DNA from: an uncultured Bacteroidota bacterium
GTDB lineage: Bacteria; Bacteroidota; Bacteroidia; Bacteroidales; P3
Direction: 5' to 3'
Assembly: GCA_902774395.1 (NCBI GenBank)
Contig: CACYIK010000007.1
Coordinates: 1-64,000, forward strand
Length of the DNA stretch: 64,000 nucleotides
Shown here: positions 27,493 to 38,013 of the stretch, in pieces
How positions within the stretch are numbered: position 1 is the first letter of the stretch
Layout: each line of letters starts with the position of its first letter
The notes under the pieces: generated by a model
What the model was told of the DNA's origin: nothing
What the model saw: the letters and a program-made list of their open reading frames with translations, nothing else
The model's database searches: none
Made by a program: the position numbers and the translations under genes

Positions 27493-29613
27493 ATGAAAAA
27501 GGCAAGGATTATTGTTATGGTGCTTGTCGCCGTGGTACTGGCTGCAGGCACCGTTTTTGAGCGCTACCGCGGGGCGGAATGGGTCGCCGACCACTTCTAC
27601 GGCTCGTGGTGGTTCGCAGTGCTGCTGGGACTGGTGGCCGTAGGAAGCCTATCGAGGGTTTATACGTTGATACGTTCAAAGTTGATACGTTCCCATATCC
27701 CCTCCCTGCTCATCCATATTGCCATTCCCGTCATTCTGTTGGGCGGTGCCCTCACCTCCTGGACGGGCGAGCACTACAGCATCACCCTTGCCCCCGGCGA
27801 GACCAAGGAGGGTATCACCCTCGAGCGCTTCGAGGTGCTCTATTATCCCGGCACACGCACCCCCATGGACTTCGTCAGCCACGTCACCGTGGCGGACGGT
27901 TCGGCCGTCCGCAAAGCCGACATCTCCATGAACCACATCCTTCGCTACGACGGCCGCCGCTACTACCAAGAGGACTACGACGACCAGGGCCGCACCACCC
28001 TCAGCGTCAGCCACGACCCCTGGGGTATTCCCGTCTCCTACACCGGCTACGCCCTGCTCCTCCTCGGACTGGGTTGGCTTGTTATCAAGAGGAGTGAAAG
28101 GGGAGTGAATAAGGGGAGTGAAAGGGGAGTGAAAGGGACAATAGCATCGGCAGACAATAATGCTGACAAAAACATTTGTCCCCCTCACTCCACCTTCACT
28201 TCTCCCTCACTCCCCTCTCACTCCCTATCCCTTTCACTCCTTTTCCTATTACTCTTCCCCCTTGCTGCCAACGCTGCACCACGTACTTTGCCTCGCGAAA
28301 CCGCCTCGAAGATGGGCGAGATGTACACCCTCTACAAAGGTCGCATCTGCCCCCTGCAAACCTTCGCCAAGGACTTTACAACCAAGCTCACCGGCAAAGC
28401 CACCTACGAAGGTCTCTCCTCCGAGCAGGTGCTCAGCGGTTTCATCTTCTATTACAGCGACTGGGCACCTATCCTCGACGAGGTGAGCCCCAAGCGGCAG
28501 AAAGAAAGCAGGGCGCTGGTAGAGATGCTCCTCTCCGGCCGCAGCTTAAAACTCTTCCCCGTGGCCGACAGCACCGGCACCCTCGGCTGGTACGCCCAAA
28601 ACGACGACCTGCCGATGACCGTCTCCGACGACGAGTACATCTTCATCCGCAAGCACCTCAGCTACTGCCAGGAACTGGTCGTGAAGGGCGACTTTGCGAC
28701 CTTGGAAAAAGTCTTCGAAAAGATAAAACTCTTCCAGGAAAAACGTGCCGCCGACGTGCTCCCTTCTCCCACGAGGGTCAAAGCCGAGCGCCTCTACAAC
28801 GCCCTCACCACCGGCCGCTGGCTGGCGATGCTCACCCTCACCCTAGGCATCCTCCTCTTCGCCTATAGCCTTTGGAAAAAGGGGAGTCTCCTCTCTCACT
28901 CCCTTGCACTTCTATACCTCATCCTTCTTACCTCTTACCTCTTACTTATCTTCATACTCCGTTGGATAGCCGGCGGCCACATCCCCATGGCGGGTGGCTT
29001 CGACAGCATGAACCTCATGGCTATTGCCATCGGCATCTTGGGCTTGGTCTTTTCGTTCCGCTCCAAGAAATTTTCAATTTTCAATTTTCAATTTTCAATT
29101 TCTGCAGCTATGCTCTCCATGGGCTTCTGCCTTCTGGTCGCTATGATGAGCGGTAGCAACCCGCCCGTCACCAACCTCATGCCCGTCCTCAGCTCACCCC
29201 TGCTCTGCCTCCACGTCGCCGTCATCATGATGTCCTACGCCCTCTTCTTCTTCCTGATGATCATAGGCATCGCCGGATTGATAAGCGGCAAGAAAACTTT
29301 CAATTTCCAATTTTCAATCTTCAATTTGGCAAAGCGCCTCCTCTATCCCGCCGTCTTCCTCCTCACCCTCGGCATCATTATTGGCGCCCTCTGGGCCAAC
29401 ATCTCGTGGGGAAACTACTGGACCTGGGACCCCAAGGAGGTCTGGGCCCTCATCACCCTCATCGTCTACGCCTTCCCCCTGCACCCCTCCCTCTCCGTCA
29501 GCCGCGAGCCCAAGAAATTCTTCCTCTACTGCACCCTCGCCTTCCTCAGCGTCATCATCACCTACTTCGGCGTCAATATCCTCCTCGGCGGCATGCACTC
29601 CTATGGCGGCTAG
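27493..29613 (+). CDS. ResB-CcsA fusion cytochrome c biogenesis protein
   Basis: System II haem lyase: the N-terminal ~190 residues are ResB-like (two helices, then the periplasmic ITLAPGETKEGITLERFEVL region), the C-terminal ~270 CcsA-like. The CcsA haem-handling motif WGNYWTWDPKEVWALI is near residue 637. It would attach haem to the CxxCH sites of the upstream oxidoreductase. Oddities: an in-frame hairpin repeat of ~170 bp (28085-28255) sits in the linker and encodes a Ser/Leu/His-rich stretch. Two simple-repeat segments encode FSIFNFQFSI near 29072 and TFNFQFSIFNL near 29299. GATACGTTCAAA repeats lie near 27665. Confidence 0.88.
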   Translation: MKKARIIVMVLVAVVLAAGTVFERYRGAEWVADHFYGSWWFAVLLGLVAVGSLSRVYTLIRSKLIRSHIPSLLIHIAIPVILLGGALTSWTGEHYSITLAPGETKEGITLERFEVLYYPGTRTPMDFVSHVTVADGSAVRKADISMNHILRYDGRRYYQEDYDDQGRTTLSVSHDPWGIPVSYTGYALLLLGLGWLVIKRSERGVNKGSERGVKGTIASADNNADKNICPPHSTFTSPSLPSHSLSLSLLFLLLFPLAANAAPRTLPRETASKMGEMYTLYKGRICPLQTFAKDFTTKLTGKATYEGLSSEQVLSGFIFYYSDWAPILDEVSPKRQKESRALVEMLLSGRSLKLFPVADSTGTLGWYAQNDDLPMTVSDDEYIFIRKHLSYCQELVVKGDFATLEKVFEKIKLFQEKRAADVLPSPTRVKAERLYNALTTGRWLAMLTLTLGILLFAYSLWKKGSLLSHSLALLYLILLTSYLLLIFILRWIAGGHIPMAGGFDSMNLMAIAIGILGLVFSFRSKKFSIFNFQFSISAAMLSMGFCLLVAMMSGSNPPVTNLMPVLSSPLLCLHVAVIMMSYALFFFLMIIGIAGLISGKKTFNFQFSIFNLAKRLLYPAVFLLTLGIIIGALWANISWGNYWTWDPKEVWALITLIVYAFPLHPSLSVSREPKKFFLYCTLAFLSVIITYFGVNILLGGMHSYGG
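28085..28255. repeat. R2 hairpin repeat inside ResB-CcsA (copy A)
   Basis: Left arm of GGGGAGTGAAA units, core 28135-28182 starting GGGACAATAGCATCGG and ending AACATTTGTCCCC, right arm of CTCACTCCC units complementary to the left. The reading frame stays open throughout. The core is nearly the same as that at 31427-31473. Confidence 0.85.
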
Positions 29614-31003: not shown

Positions 31004-31290
31004 AAATCCTCCCTCTTCGGGTTCTTCGGAAACCATCCTTTCGCCACACGCTCTTTCTGCTTGAAAAGCTCCAGGATAGACCAGAAAGCCGAGAATGCCA
31101 CCACCCCCAGGATGGTCGAAAGGATCACCTCCGCCACCAGCAGCGACGCCGCGATGCACGCCACCCCCAGCAGCAGGAACATCCACCAGCAGCGCACGCC
31201 CAGATAATACTCCGCCTTGATCACGACGGGATGGAAAAGCCCAATGCAAAGGAAGGAAGCCACTCCGATGATGATTCCGGTAAAGTTCAT
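31000..31290 (-). CDS. DUF4491 family membrane protein
   Basis: The 96-residue protein has three hydrophobic helices (FTGIIIGVASFLCIGLFHPVV, CWWMFLLLGVACIAASLLVA, VILSTILGVVAFSAFWSI) and a basic C-terminus. This is the compact DUF4491 pattern known from Bacteroidales; the function is unknown. It is translationally coupled to the ZIP transporter and has its own -7 element (TATCTTTG, minus, 31334-31341), so the pair forms an operon. A 57-base piece of this gene is duplicated near 34.3 kb. Confidence 0.8.
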   Translation of the reverse strand: MNFTGIIIGVASFLCIGLFHPVVIKAEYYLGVRCWWMFLLLGVACIAASLLVAEVILSTILGVVAFSAFWSILELFKQKERVAKGWFPKNPKREDL

Positions 31291-31374: not shown

Positions 31375-31520
31375 TTGGAAAAGGGGAGTGAAAGAGGAGT
31401 GAAAGTGAAGTGAAGGGGGAGTGAAAGAGACAATAGCATCGGTAGACAATAATGTAGGCACAAGCATTTGTCCCCCTCACTTCCCCCTCACTCCTCCTTC
31501 ACTCCCCCCCTCACTCCTCA
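31375..31520. repeat. R2 hairpin repeat, copy B (intergenic)
   Basis: Arms of GGGGAGTGAAA units and CCCTCACTCC units surround core 31427-31473 (AGACAATAGCATCGGTAGAC ... GCATTTGTCCCC). About 42 of 49 core bases match the copy inside ResB-CcsA. It lies between the receptor gene and the DUF4491 promoter. Confidence 0.85.
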
Positions 31521-34263: not shown

Positions 34264-34407
34264 TCACTCCCCACTTCCTCCGCCACCAGCAGCGACGCCG
34301 CGATGCACGCCACCCCCAGCAGCAGGAACATCCGCCAGCATGTGCATGGCAAATCCAACCATGATAATTACCCAGATAAGGGATACTTTAGATACTTTTG
34401 TTTCCAT
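34264..34407 (-). pseudogene. Chimeric small ORF carrying a DUF4491 gene fragment
   Basis: The reading frame starts METKVSKVSLIWVIIMVGFA, like the beginning of a membrane protein. After HMLAD it runs into a ~57-base sequence identical to part of the DUF4491 gene (31127-31183), here read in another frame as DVPAAGGGVHRG. It then stops in CACTCC repeats. It looks like a membrane-protein gene whose body was replaced. It lies 17 bases behind the methyltransferase gene. Confidence 0.55.
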
Positions 34408-35190: not shown

Positions 35191-38013
35191 ATGAAAATGA
35201 GAAAGATTGCCATTTTCGCAACCCTGTTGATTTTCAGTTTTGAGTTTTCAATCCTCCATTCCCAGAAAACCCTCATGTCGCCCTCGGCGGCATTGAAGAC
35301 GCTGGAAATCCGCGACGGTAGATGCCAGGAAGAGAGTCTCCACGCCTTCGTTACTCTCGCCGAGGGCACCGACCTCAAGGCCTTCGACGCCTACGGAGTG
35401 AAGGTGAACTCAATCGTCCCACTCAGTCATCACTCATCACTCATCACTCATCATTCAATGATGACAGTACAGATCCCCACCAAGCACTACCTCGACTTCG
35501 TGGCTTCGGGACTTTGCGACTACATAGAGCTTGGCAATGAACTTCACCCCTATCTGGACAAGGCCTGTGCCGACATGGGTGTCGACTATATCCACCAGGG
35601 CGTCAACCTGCCGCAAGGCTATGACGGCACCGGCGTGGTGGTGGGCATCATCGACGGCGGCTTCGACTACGGTCACCCCACCTTCTTCGACACCACAGGC
35701 ACCACGTTGCGTATTAAGCGAGTGTGGCAGCAGTTCGACGACAGCGGTAACCCGCCCGCAGGCTTCAGCTATGGCACCGAATATGCTACCCCCGACGCCA
35801 TCCTCGGCGCTGTTACCGACCTCGCCAACCAAACGCATGGAAGCCATGTGGCTGGCATCGCCGCCGGCAGCGGCCCCAGTCGCAGTCACCGCGGTATGGC
35901 TCCGGGAGCCGATATCGTGATTGTCGCCTCTGCCTGGATGGAAGCCACCACTTTCGACGCCATCCAATACATCCATGAATATGCCCGCTCGGTACACAAA
36001 CCCTGCGTTATCAATATGAGCTTCGGTACTTTGGCTGGCCCACACGACGGAACCGACGCTTTCAGCACTATCCTCCAAAACTATCTGCGCGACTCGAGCG
36101 GCGTGGCGCTCGATAGCCTTATCATTGTTGCTTCGGCGGCCAACAGCGGCAGCACGATGAACCATTTCCGCCACCAGTTCTCGGCAACCGATACTATGTC
36201 ATTCACCTATACCTGCAACACGAGGACTGGCAACGTTAACTTAGCGATAGACAGCTGGGGCGCCGTGGGCGACACCTTCAGTGTCTCGTTGGCCCTGTAT
36301 GACTATGGCATTAATACCGACCACACATTCGTGATGGATATGCCTTTCGTCTCGAGTGCTGTCGATACGGTCTTCACAGTCGACTTCACCTCGCCGCGCG
36401 ACAGCGTCTATCACTGCAACATCGTCGTAACCCATGACAATCCCCGCAACCATCGCCCCTCCATTATTCTCAATCTCTATAAGAATGGCTTTTACAATAC
36501 GCGAGATATCTTCCGTATCACCCTCAAGTCCACTTCGGCCGATGTCCACCTTTGGAGCGACGATGTCTATTTTTACAAGGCAAACACCCCGCAGGCTCAG
36601 GACGGAGACTACGATTATCTGATTGGCGGCGAGGGCGCCAACGGCGACGATGTCATCTGTGTGGGTAGCTATGCCACCCGTACCAAGTTCTATGGCGACG
36701 ACGGCACTTACCGCAGTCTTTCGAGTGACGTGGAGGGCGACCTCTCCTACTTCTCGTCGCACGGCCCCACCTGGGATGGTCGTGTGAAACCCGACATCTG
36801 CGCACCCGGCCAGAAGTTAGCTTCTGCAGTCAATGCCAGCGCTTTGGGGCCTCTCGACGATGTGGTCGACTCCACCTTCTTTGGCGGCTCGATGCGCTAT
36901 TACGCTTTGATGCAGGGCACCTCGATGTCGTCGCCGGCAGCGGCTGGCATCATTGCCCTCTGGCTCCAGCATAACCCCGCTCTCAACGTCGACTCTGTGC
37001 GTACGCTGCTCCACGACAACGGCATCCGCGACCGTTTTGCCCGCGATATCCCTGCCGAAGGCAGCAACGAATGGGGCTGGGGCAAGATTGACGCTTTCGC
37101 CGGACTGCCCACTCCTTCGGCGCCGTTGCACTACGTCTACACCTATCCCTACGACCCCACGACGGGACATGTTGTCGGACGAGGCCGTCACCCCGAAGGT
37201 CAGCTCACCATCGAAGCAGCCCCCACCTCAGGCTATGGCTTCGACCACTGGAATAATACCCATGAGGATATCACCGGCAACCCCTTTACTTTCAATCTCG
37301 TCAGCGACACCGTTTTGCTGGCCCGTTTCGTGGAACTTCCTTGCGACACCATCAGCCAGTTTCCCTGGGAAGCTGTTTTTGACCAGGGCTCCCTCATCTG
37401 CTGGGAGAGATATTCGCAGAATGTTTCTCTGTCGGGTTGGAGGGAATATTCACAGGGCTCGATGGTTTCGGTCGGATTGGTATCGTCGGGTGGTCCTGAC
37501 GCCATGTTGATTACTCCTCCTGTGCGTGTAGAGTCTCAGACTGCCCTCTTCTACAATGCCACTTCCTCCAGCCGGGAACCCAACTTCGACAGTCTGGCCG
37601 TCGTGGTCTTCAACGCCGACGGTGAGACCATCGGTCTTTACCCCCAGCACCTCAGCACGAGCAACAGTGGCGACTTCATCGTCAGCCTCGACCCCTATGC
37701 CGGACAGGTGGTGAAGCTTGGATTCCATCACTTTGCCTGTAGTGCAACGAGCATGGTCGTTCTTTCCAATGTGAAGATTGACCATCATGTCGGTATCATG
37801 GAAGTTGAGAATTCAAACCTGAAGATTATAACCTCCGGACTCGACCTCCGCATTGATAATCCTGACGGCGAGACCGTGAGCCTCTACGACATCACCGGCC
37901 GCCACCTCGCCACTCAACACTCAACTCACATCACTCATCACTTCTCAACTCCCGGAGTCTACATTGTCAAGGCCGGTAACCGTCCGGCAAGGAAACTTGT
38001 GGTGCTTCGATAA
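35191..38013 (+). CDS. S8 subtilisin-like peptidase with T9SS sorting domain
   Basis: The 940-residue secreted protease starts after a -7 element at 35147-35154. Signal peptide, then the S8 triad: D155 (GIIDGGFDYGHPTF), H216 (THGSHVAGIAAG) and S578 (GTSMSSPAAAGI). A beta-sandwich separates H and S. After it come an InlB-like repeat (HPEGQLTIEAAPTSGYGFDH) and a jelly-roll region. The tail (GETVSLYDITGRH, GVYIVKAG, KLVVLR) is a type A T9SS signal. Two stretches are repeat-coded: SHHSSLITHHS near residue 82 and QHSTHITHHFS near residue 912. Confidence 0.9.
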   Translation: MKMRKIAIFATLLIFSFEFSILHSQKTLMSPSAALKTLEIRDGRCQEESLHAFVTLAEGTDLKAFDAYGVKVNSIVPLSHHSSLITHHSMMTVQIPTKHYLDFVASGLCDYIELGNELHPYLDKACADMGVDYIHQGVNLPQGYDGTGVVVGIIDGGFDYGHPTFFDTTGTTLRIKRVWQQFDDSGNPPAGFSYGTEYATPDAILGAVTDLANQTHGSHVAGIAAGSGPSRSHRGMAPGADIVIVASAWMEATTFDAIQYIHEYARSVHKPCVINMSFGTLAGPHDGTDAFSTILQNYLRDSSGVALDSLIIVASAANSGSTMNHFRHQFSATDTMSFTYTCNTRTGNVNLAIDSWGAVGDTFSVSLALYDYGINTDHTFVMDMPFVSSAVDTVFTVDFTSPRDSVYHCNIVVTHDNPRNHRPSIILNLYKNGFYNTRDIFRITLKSTSADVHLWSDDVYFYKANTPQAQDGDYDYLIGGEGANGDDVICVGSYATRTKFYGDDGTYRSLSSDVEGDLSYFSSHGPTWDGRVKPDICAPGQKLASAVNASALGPLDDVVDSTFFGGSMRYYALMQGTSMSSPAAAGIIALWLQHNPALNVDSVRTLLHDNGIRDRFARDIPAEGSNEWGWGKIDAFAGLPTPSAPLHYVYTYPYDPTTGHVVGRGRHPEGQLTIEAAPTSGYGFDHWNNTHEDITGNPFTFNLVSDTVLLARFVELPCDTISQFPWEAVFDQGSLICWERYSQNVSLSGWREYSQGSMVSVGLVSSGGPDAMLITPPVRVESQTALFYNATSSSREPNFDSLAVVVFNADGETIGLYPQHLSTSNSGDFIVSLDPYAGQVVKLGFHHFACSATSMVVLSNVKIDHHVGIMEVENSNLKIITSGLDLRIDNPDGETVSLYDITGRHLATQHSTHITHHFSTPGVYIVKAGNRPARKLVVLR

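Follow-up and report, generated by a model that had tools for sequence, protein, structure and literature searches.

We analyzed a 64,000-nucleotide stretch of contig C7 (the window) from G000, a 2.35-Mb MAG in 26 contigs. Among named relatives, uncultured rumen Bacteroidales MAGs come closest to it, and the genomes with which it was compared are MAGs throughout. An uninterrupted ORF of 706 codons at 27493-29613 contains both a ResB domain (PF05140) and a Cytochrom_C_asm domain (PF01578), each above cut-off. A single ORF thus holds the ResB and CcsA domains, as is characteristic of CcsBA fusions, and it has the domain order and the conserved WGNYWxWDPKEVWAL motif in common with the natural fusions of System II. 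Compared with these, the linker between the two domains is the sole unusual part. The aligned linker segment comprises 78 residues, versus typically 42 in the orthologues, whose linkers are unrelated in sequence and typically read SPxGxFRxLLKG before the next hydrophobic segment. The linker peptide found here includes, for example, the stretch GTIASADNNADK. Both gene halves are under purifying selection (dN/dS 0.14-0.35). The linker harbors a palindromic repeat, which is one of several inserts in the gene, there being four further in-frame tandem arrays (Table 1).

Table 1. Repeat elements in the window and the gene that hosts the linker insert.
Feature	Position	Strand	Basis
ResB-CcsA (CcsBA-type) cytochrome c maturation fusion, 706 aa, host of the insert	27493..29613	+	ORF, domain matches, 50 fused orthologous loci
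In-frame GTTGATAC array, ResB loop; part of a block replaced relative to L078/L040/L041/L042	27658..27691	+	
Full palindromic element, in frame, encodes IKRSERGVNKGSERGVKGTIASADNNADKNICPPHSTFTSPSLPSHS	28084..28224	+	Fold, copies, empty orthologue sites, 1/6 frames open
Left arm: tandem units AGTGAAAGGGG, one 13-bp unit (AGTGAATAAGGGG) keeping TGA out of frame	28087..28137	+	
Core between arms, GGGACAATAGCATCGG..ACATTTGTCCC	28134..28181	+	
Right arm: inverted units CCCTCACTCCA	28182..28224	+	
In-frame TTACCTC-type array	28908..28945	+	
In-frame AATTTTC array, 4.7 units; most orthologues without it	29069..29101	+	
In-frame TTTCAAT array; close relatives have other heptamers at the same loop	29298..29327	+	
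Intergenic second full copy, closed in all six frames	31381..31517	+	
Single right-arm copy (SSHSLSLPFTPSHS), in frame, tRNA-dihydrouridine synthase (Dus) loop	54484..54534	+	

The linker insert is a 141-bp palindrome made of two inverted arrays with units of about 11 bp, which read GGGGAGTGAAA in the left array and as its complement in the right one. They enclose a core of the form GGGACAA..TTGTCCC, which starts with GGGACAATAG and ends with ACATTTGTCCC. An earlier note on this DNA had described a hairpin repeat at 28085-28255, in frame within the ResB-CcsA gene. This observation is confirmed: the 706-codon ORF is open, and the repeat is real, with a second copy and a strong fold, and encodes the peptide SLPSHSLSLSLLFLLLF as claimed. 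Its position at the ResB/CcsA linker is borne out by the orthologues, which carry a shorter, unrelated linker there. The repeat proper covers about 28084-28224, however, and the remainder up to 28255 is the start of the next hydrophobic segment. An intergenic copy described as near-identical in its core does exist, but identity is only about 85-89%: the 137-bp copy at 31381-31517 is 85% identical to the coding copy, the coding repeat matches 31403-31507 with 86% identity over 105 bp, and positions 3-140 of the 171-bp query align at 85%. As single-stranded DNA, both copies fold far more strongly than shuffled sequence, with -43.3 kcal/mol for the coding one (z = -8.5) and -31.3 kcal/mol for the intergenic one (z = -5.8). 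Only one of the six frames is open through the coding copy. It is the frame used by the gene, and the 13-bp left-arm unit contributes to this; none of the six is open in the intergenic copy.

The insert is located between the two domains, as would be expected if the repeat had bridged separate resB and ccsA genes and thereby created the fusion, which is what the earlier note proposed. The orthologues contradict this. By our own count in the species collection, 50 orthologous loci have one ORF across both halves and no such element. These insert-free fused orthologues reach identities of about 34%, in Prevotella and Paludibacteraceae MAGs, and at least five further families of the order have fused ORFs as well. 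The two halves are thus joined without the insert, and a repeat-made fusion can be practically dismissed. As judged from these sequence comparisons, the fusion predates the repeat, which would have entered a pre-existing linker, because fused orthologues without the element carry a shorter one. We therefore favor, with a probability of roughly 80%, the view that a dispersed repeat was inserted in frame into an already existing ResB-CcsA fusion.

At the same site, the element is present only in two sister genomes, L039 and L048, with the same left-arm arrangement. Outside the repeat blocks, the ResB halves of the filled L048 and the empty L078 are 95-99% identical; L048 has, and L078 lacks, a GTTGATAC block near 27650-27740 as well as the palindrome. 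Between the host genome and either L039 or L048 the insert diverges by about 6%, compared with a flanking synonymous divergence to L039 of about 0.4, which indicates that the insert is younger than the split or else has been exchanged or homogenised. In our own reading of the alignment, rather than a formal test, the L048 and L040 linkers are similar at their right ends, suggesting recombination inside the linker. As the data come from MAGs and the sequences are repeats, an assembly artefact has to be considered, but three MAGs (G000, G021/L048 and G061/L039) have the same element in the same position, and it is short and leaves the frame intact in the window, making this explanation very improbable.

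In both sister genomes the ResB-CcsA frame breaks near other repeats, at about 5620-5830 in L048 (linker) and at about 5110-5130 in L039 (upstream repeat); these may be real splits or assembly errors. Such breaks, like the strong fold of the coding copy, would fit a selected function, either as an RNA or DNA regulatory hairpin or through phase variation, as a switch of frame between the ResB and CcsA halves. We regard a function of this kind as decidedly improbable, since most orthologues are without the element and similar inserts are found in unrelated genes. A frame switch is further disfavored by the L048 linker, in which we read no ATG, GTG or TTG start before the conserved part of the second half.

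Five full or nearly full copies of the element occupy unrelated sites in the host genome (C7:28085, C7:31381, C3:80654, C6:65652 and C4:104257). The copy on C6 is in frame in a radical-SAM gene and encodes the same peptide pattern (KGSERGV..VKGTI..DICPSHSSLTSPSLP); aligned radical-SAM orthologues in the genus are without the element and have GCREADQYC in its place. Single arms are in frame in genes for UvrC, dihydrouridine synthase, MtaB, a YgiQ-type protein, TilS, an O-antigen ligase and an FAD protein, and UvrC orthologues are mostly without the in-frame repeat. Other arm families form in-frame palindromes in LpxH-, TruA-, RlmI-like methyltransferase-, lipoate ligase-, amidohydrolase- and ABC-F ATPase-like genes of a 300-kb contig stretch, several of these names (e.g. 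LpxH, lipoate ligase, amidohydrolase) resting on scores below the model's curated cut-off; DXS in the same stretch contains a single array. In UvrC, Dus, the radical-SAM protein, MtaB, TilS, TruA, LpxH, lipoate ligase and ABC-F the repeats would occupy loops, so that repeats would keep altering protein loops in many essential enzymes of this bacterium.

This 300-kb stretch, with genes from our own simple caller, also served as the sample for an array survey. It contains 188 tandem arrays of non-triplet period, versus 3 in a Markov-1 control, and the commonest class is that of heptamer arrays (141 arrays with a period that is a multiple of 7). Called genes make up 71-79% of the sequence of the stretch and the window, yet 5 of the 34 inverted pairs found there lie strictly within one, a pattern to be anticipated if coding insertions are mostly lost. 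When stops in coding arrays are counted on both strands, the sense strand has fewer in 31 cases and the antisense strand in 12, a bias explained by selection for an open frame. The motifs CATTTGTC and GCTACGCA are enriched about 45-fold and about 18-fold near arrays. We considered one common core for all arm families and rejected it, as this enrichment does not establish a single family. Several other arrangements were seen. One coding gene in the window has a 64-bp piece duplicated with 98% identity (31128-31191 and 34277-34340) right beside a TCCTCAC array, as though an array had picked up a gene fragment, and a TCACTCA array (35423-35457) lies within a large ORF (35191-38010). Long intergenic arrays of 11-mers, some of about 20 units, are located on C5 (L138:2256-2771 and L143:2657-2919).

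The same loops carry different repeats in different species. The UvrC loop of G001 (L205) contains an in-frame AGTGGCC-armed palindrome with a GGCTGACGCAG core, and the radical-SAM loop of G011 (L238) an ATAGTGG palindrome. Heptamer peptides of the ENGKWK type are found in the Dus loop of several species. In the ResB/CcsA linker itself, L040 has in-frame GC-rich REP-like hairpins (L040:5560-5760) and L086 another hairpin repeat. Different array families at the same loops across species indicate that these loops serve as recurrent landing or replacement sites, as far as can be concluded from sequence. Cores similar to GGCTGACGCAG recur between other arm families. AlphaFold2 models gave a pLDDT of 34-51 for the ResB-CcsA insert (residues 201-260), versus about 80-97 for most of the protein, and of 53-66 for the Dus insert (about 201-217), versus about 90 in most neighbours, values that may also stem from a thin alignment at the inserts. 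The inserts are thus predicted to sit in disordered loops.

We compared the element to known repeat systems. The palindromic elements of Rickettsia and Wolbachia (RPE and WPE) measure 100-150 bp, occur in many copies and lie in frame in housekeeping genes, in solvent-exposed loops that are possible hotspots where different families meet (PMC3767692). Our element resembles them in size, copy number, in-frame coding sites, loop position and the meeting of several families in one loop. It is a palindrome in the range of about 100-150 bp with several copies per genome, it is in frame in intact genes that have orthologues without it (ResB-CcsA, radical-SAM, UvrC), and its inserts in ResB-CcsA and Dus fall in exposed or disordered loops, the latter in predicted models only. 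The parallel with Rickettsia drawn in the earlier note is supported to this extent, as in-frame palindromic insertion. The arms, in contrast, are tandem arrays of 7-11-bp units, the host belongs to a Bacteroidales genus of gut and rumen MAGs rather than being an obligate intracellular bacterium, and family turnover within the genus is fast. The best reading is of a coding-tolerated palindromic repeat that would work like an RPE, and we do not file it as a member of that group. RPE, WPE and intragenic REPs are its closest parallels, and BrickBuilt and heptamer simple repeats have parts of the anatomy in common with it. We found no account of these repeats in rumen Bacteroidales in the open-access literature.

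The short tandem units, above chance in number, satisfy the description of simple sequence repeats (5-11-nt unit). Heptanucleotide repeats such as TAACTGA and GGGAATC are common in bacteria as dispersed, short non-triplet tandem units (PMC4679880, PMC4692102), yet those are mostly intergenic single arrays, whereas here inverted pairs and a core are in frame in housekeeping genes. Because heptamer arrays are the commonest class in our sample as well and unit number varies, arrays could arise by local slippage alone, independently in each loop and without dispersal. We consider this improbable. The arm sequence is common to five unrelated sites and pairs in inverted orientation, and the arm family is confined to few genomes: a three-unit 11-mer arm occurs in 8 of the 79 genus genomes (60 exact matches here and a maximum of 69 in another of them), and the 197 further genomes sampled from the order are all without it. 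The 65-bp core, found at high identity twice in the host genome and once each in G021 and G061, weakens the slippage explanation further by its presence at two places in one genome, leaving arm length as the remaining role of slippage. We see the insert as one copy of a palindromic repeat specific to this lineage, with short tandem arrays as arms, and not as a gene in itself.

Movement of a MITE or REP by a host transposase, by cut-and-paste or copying, would account for the defined inner ends (GGGACAA(A)TG/CATTTGTCCC) and the dispersed copies, and the genome has three Y1_Tnp genes. These RAYT-like genes (L131, L132 and L133, at C19:19628, C1:282822 and C3:74588) are, however, each surrounded by a short GC-rich hairpin family of their own and not by the 11-mer palindrome, so RAYT mobilisation was rejected. 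Intragenic GTAG/CGTC-tagged REPs with RAYT also lie inside ORFs, uvr genes included, where they encode 20-30 residues (PMC3733652), but they consist of 20-40-bp units tied to Y1 transposases, and the hairpins flanking the three Y1_Tnp loci here differ from our element. Its arrays moreover vary in unit number, unlike REPs. As to MITEs, inverted arms exist, but they are tandem arrays of variable length with the fixed motif at the inner end. The BrickBuilt MITE of Porphyromonas gingivalis, likewise a Bacteroidales, combines tandem and inverted repeats (PMC4596501); it is a minisatellite within a MITE with IS-like terminal inverted repeats and lies between genes, whereas our element has inverted arms that are themselves arrays, as well as coding copies. 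Comparison of filled and empty sites at two genes revealed no target-site duplication, the loop being replaced rather than simply split, and no enzyme was found linked to the element. Viral contigs had no exact match to the core or the arm pattern, and phage carriage was rejected on this ground. Transposition by a host enzyme is thus unlikely.

Insertion into the pre-existing fusion, which we prefer, can be outlined as follows. The repeat would have entered the linker of the already fused ResB-CcsA in its sole stop-free frame, and its persistence there would reflect a linker that can accommodate one more disordered loop. Copies that disrupt the frame or hit conserved parts are presumably lost, so that those remaining are for the most part intergenic, and coding copies are found in variable loops. 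For spread and turnover, both inside the genome and from one sister species to another, the main route may be short-tract recombination or template switching at the arrays, while local slippage would alter arm length. We give the recombination route about even odds; the replaced loops, the absent target-site duplications, the inverted pairing and the exchange between sister species fit it. At odds with this outline, in a threonine-aldolase-like gene (L167:1884-2999, C1:16884-17999) two inverted arms with GACAAATG/ATTGTCC inner ends surround apparently native sequence, from which it appears that arms can act as separate units. A wider possibility, which we hold tentatively and with more doubt than confidence, is that loops are written in this manner throughout the genus: palindromic arrays of many families, some with a GGCTGACGCAG-like core, would enter the same variable loops in essential proteins again and again, displace each other and travel as in-frame cassettes from one sister species to the next, and many loop peptides in the genus would thus be repeat-made.

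In-frame palindromic insertions are known chiefly from Rickettsia and Wolbachia, which are difficult to study. The genus described here offers many close genomes, filled and empty sites with 95-99% identical flanks and competing repeat families, making tractable the question of how selfish repeats become protein. It could show how loops gain peptides and which enzyme or repair route moves the repeats. Caution is also advisable with linker length and with odd Ser/His/Leu-rich loops in these bacteria, which may be repeat-derived rather than functional innovations.
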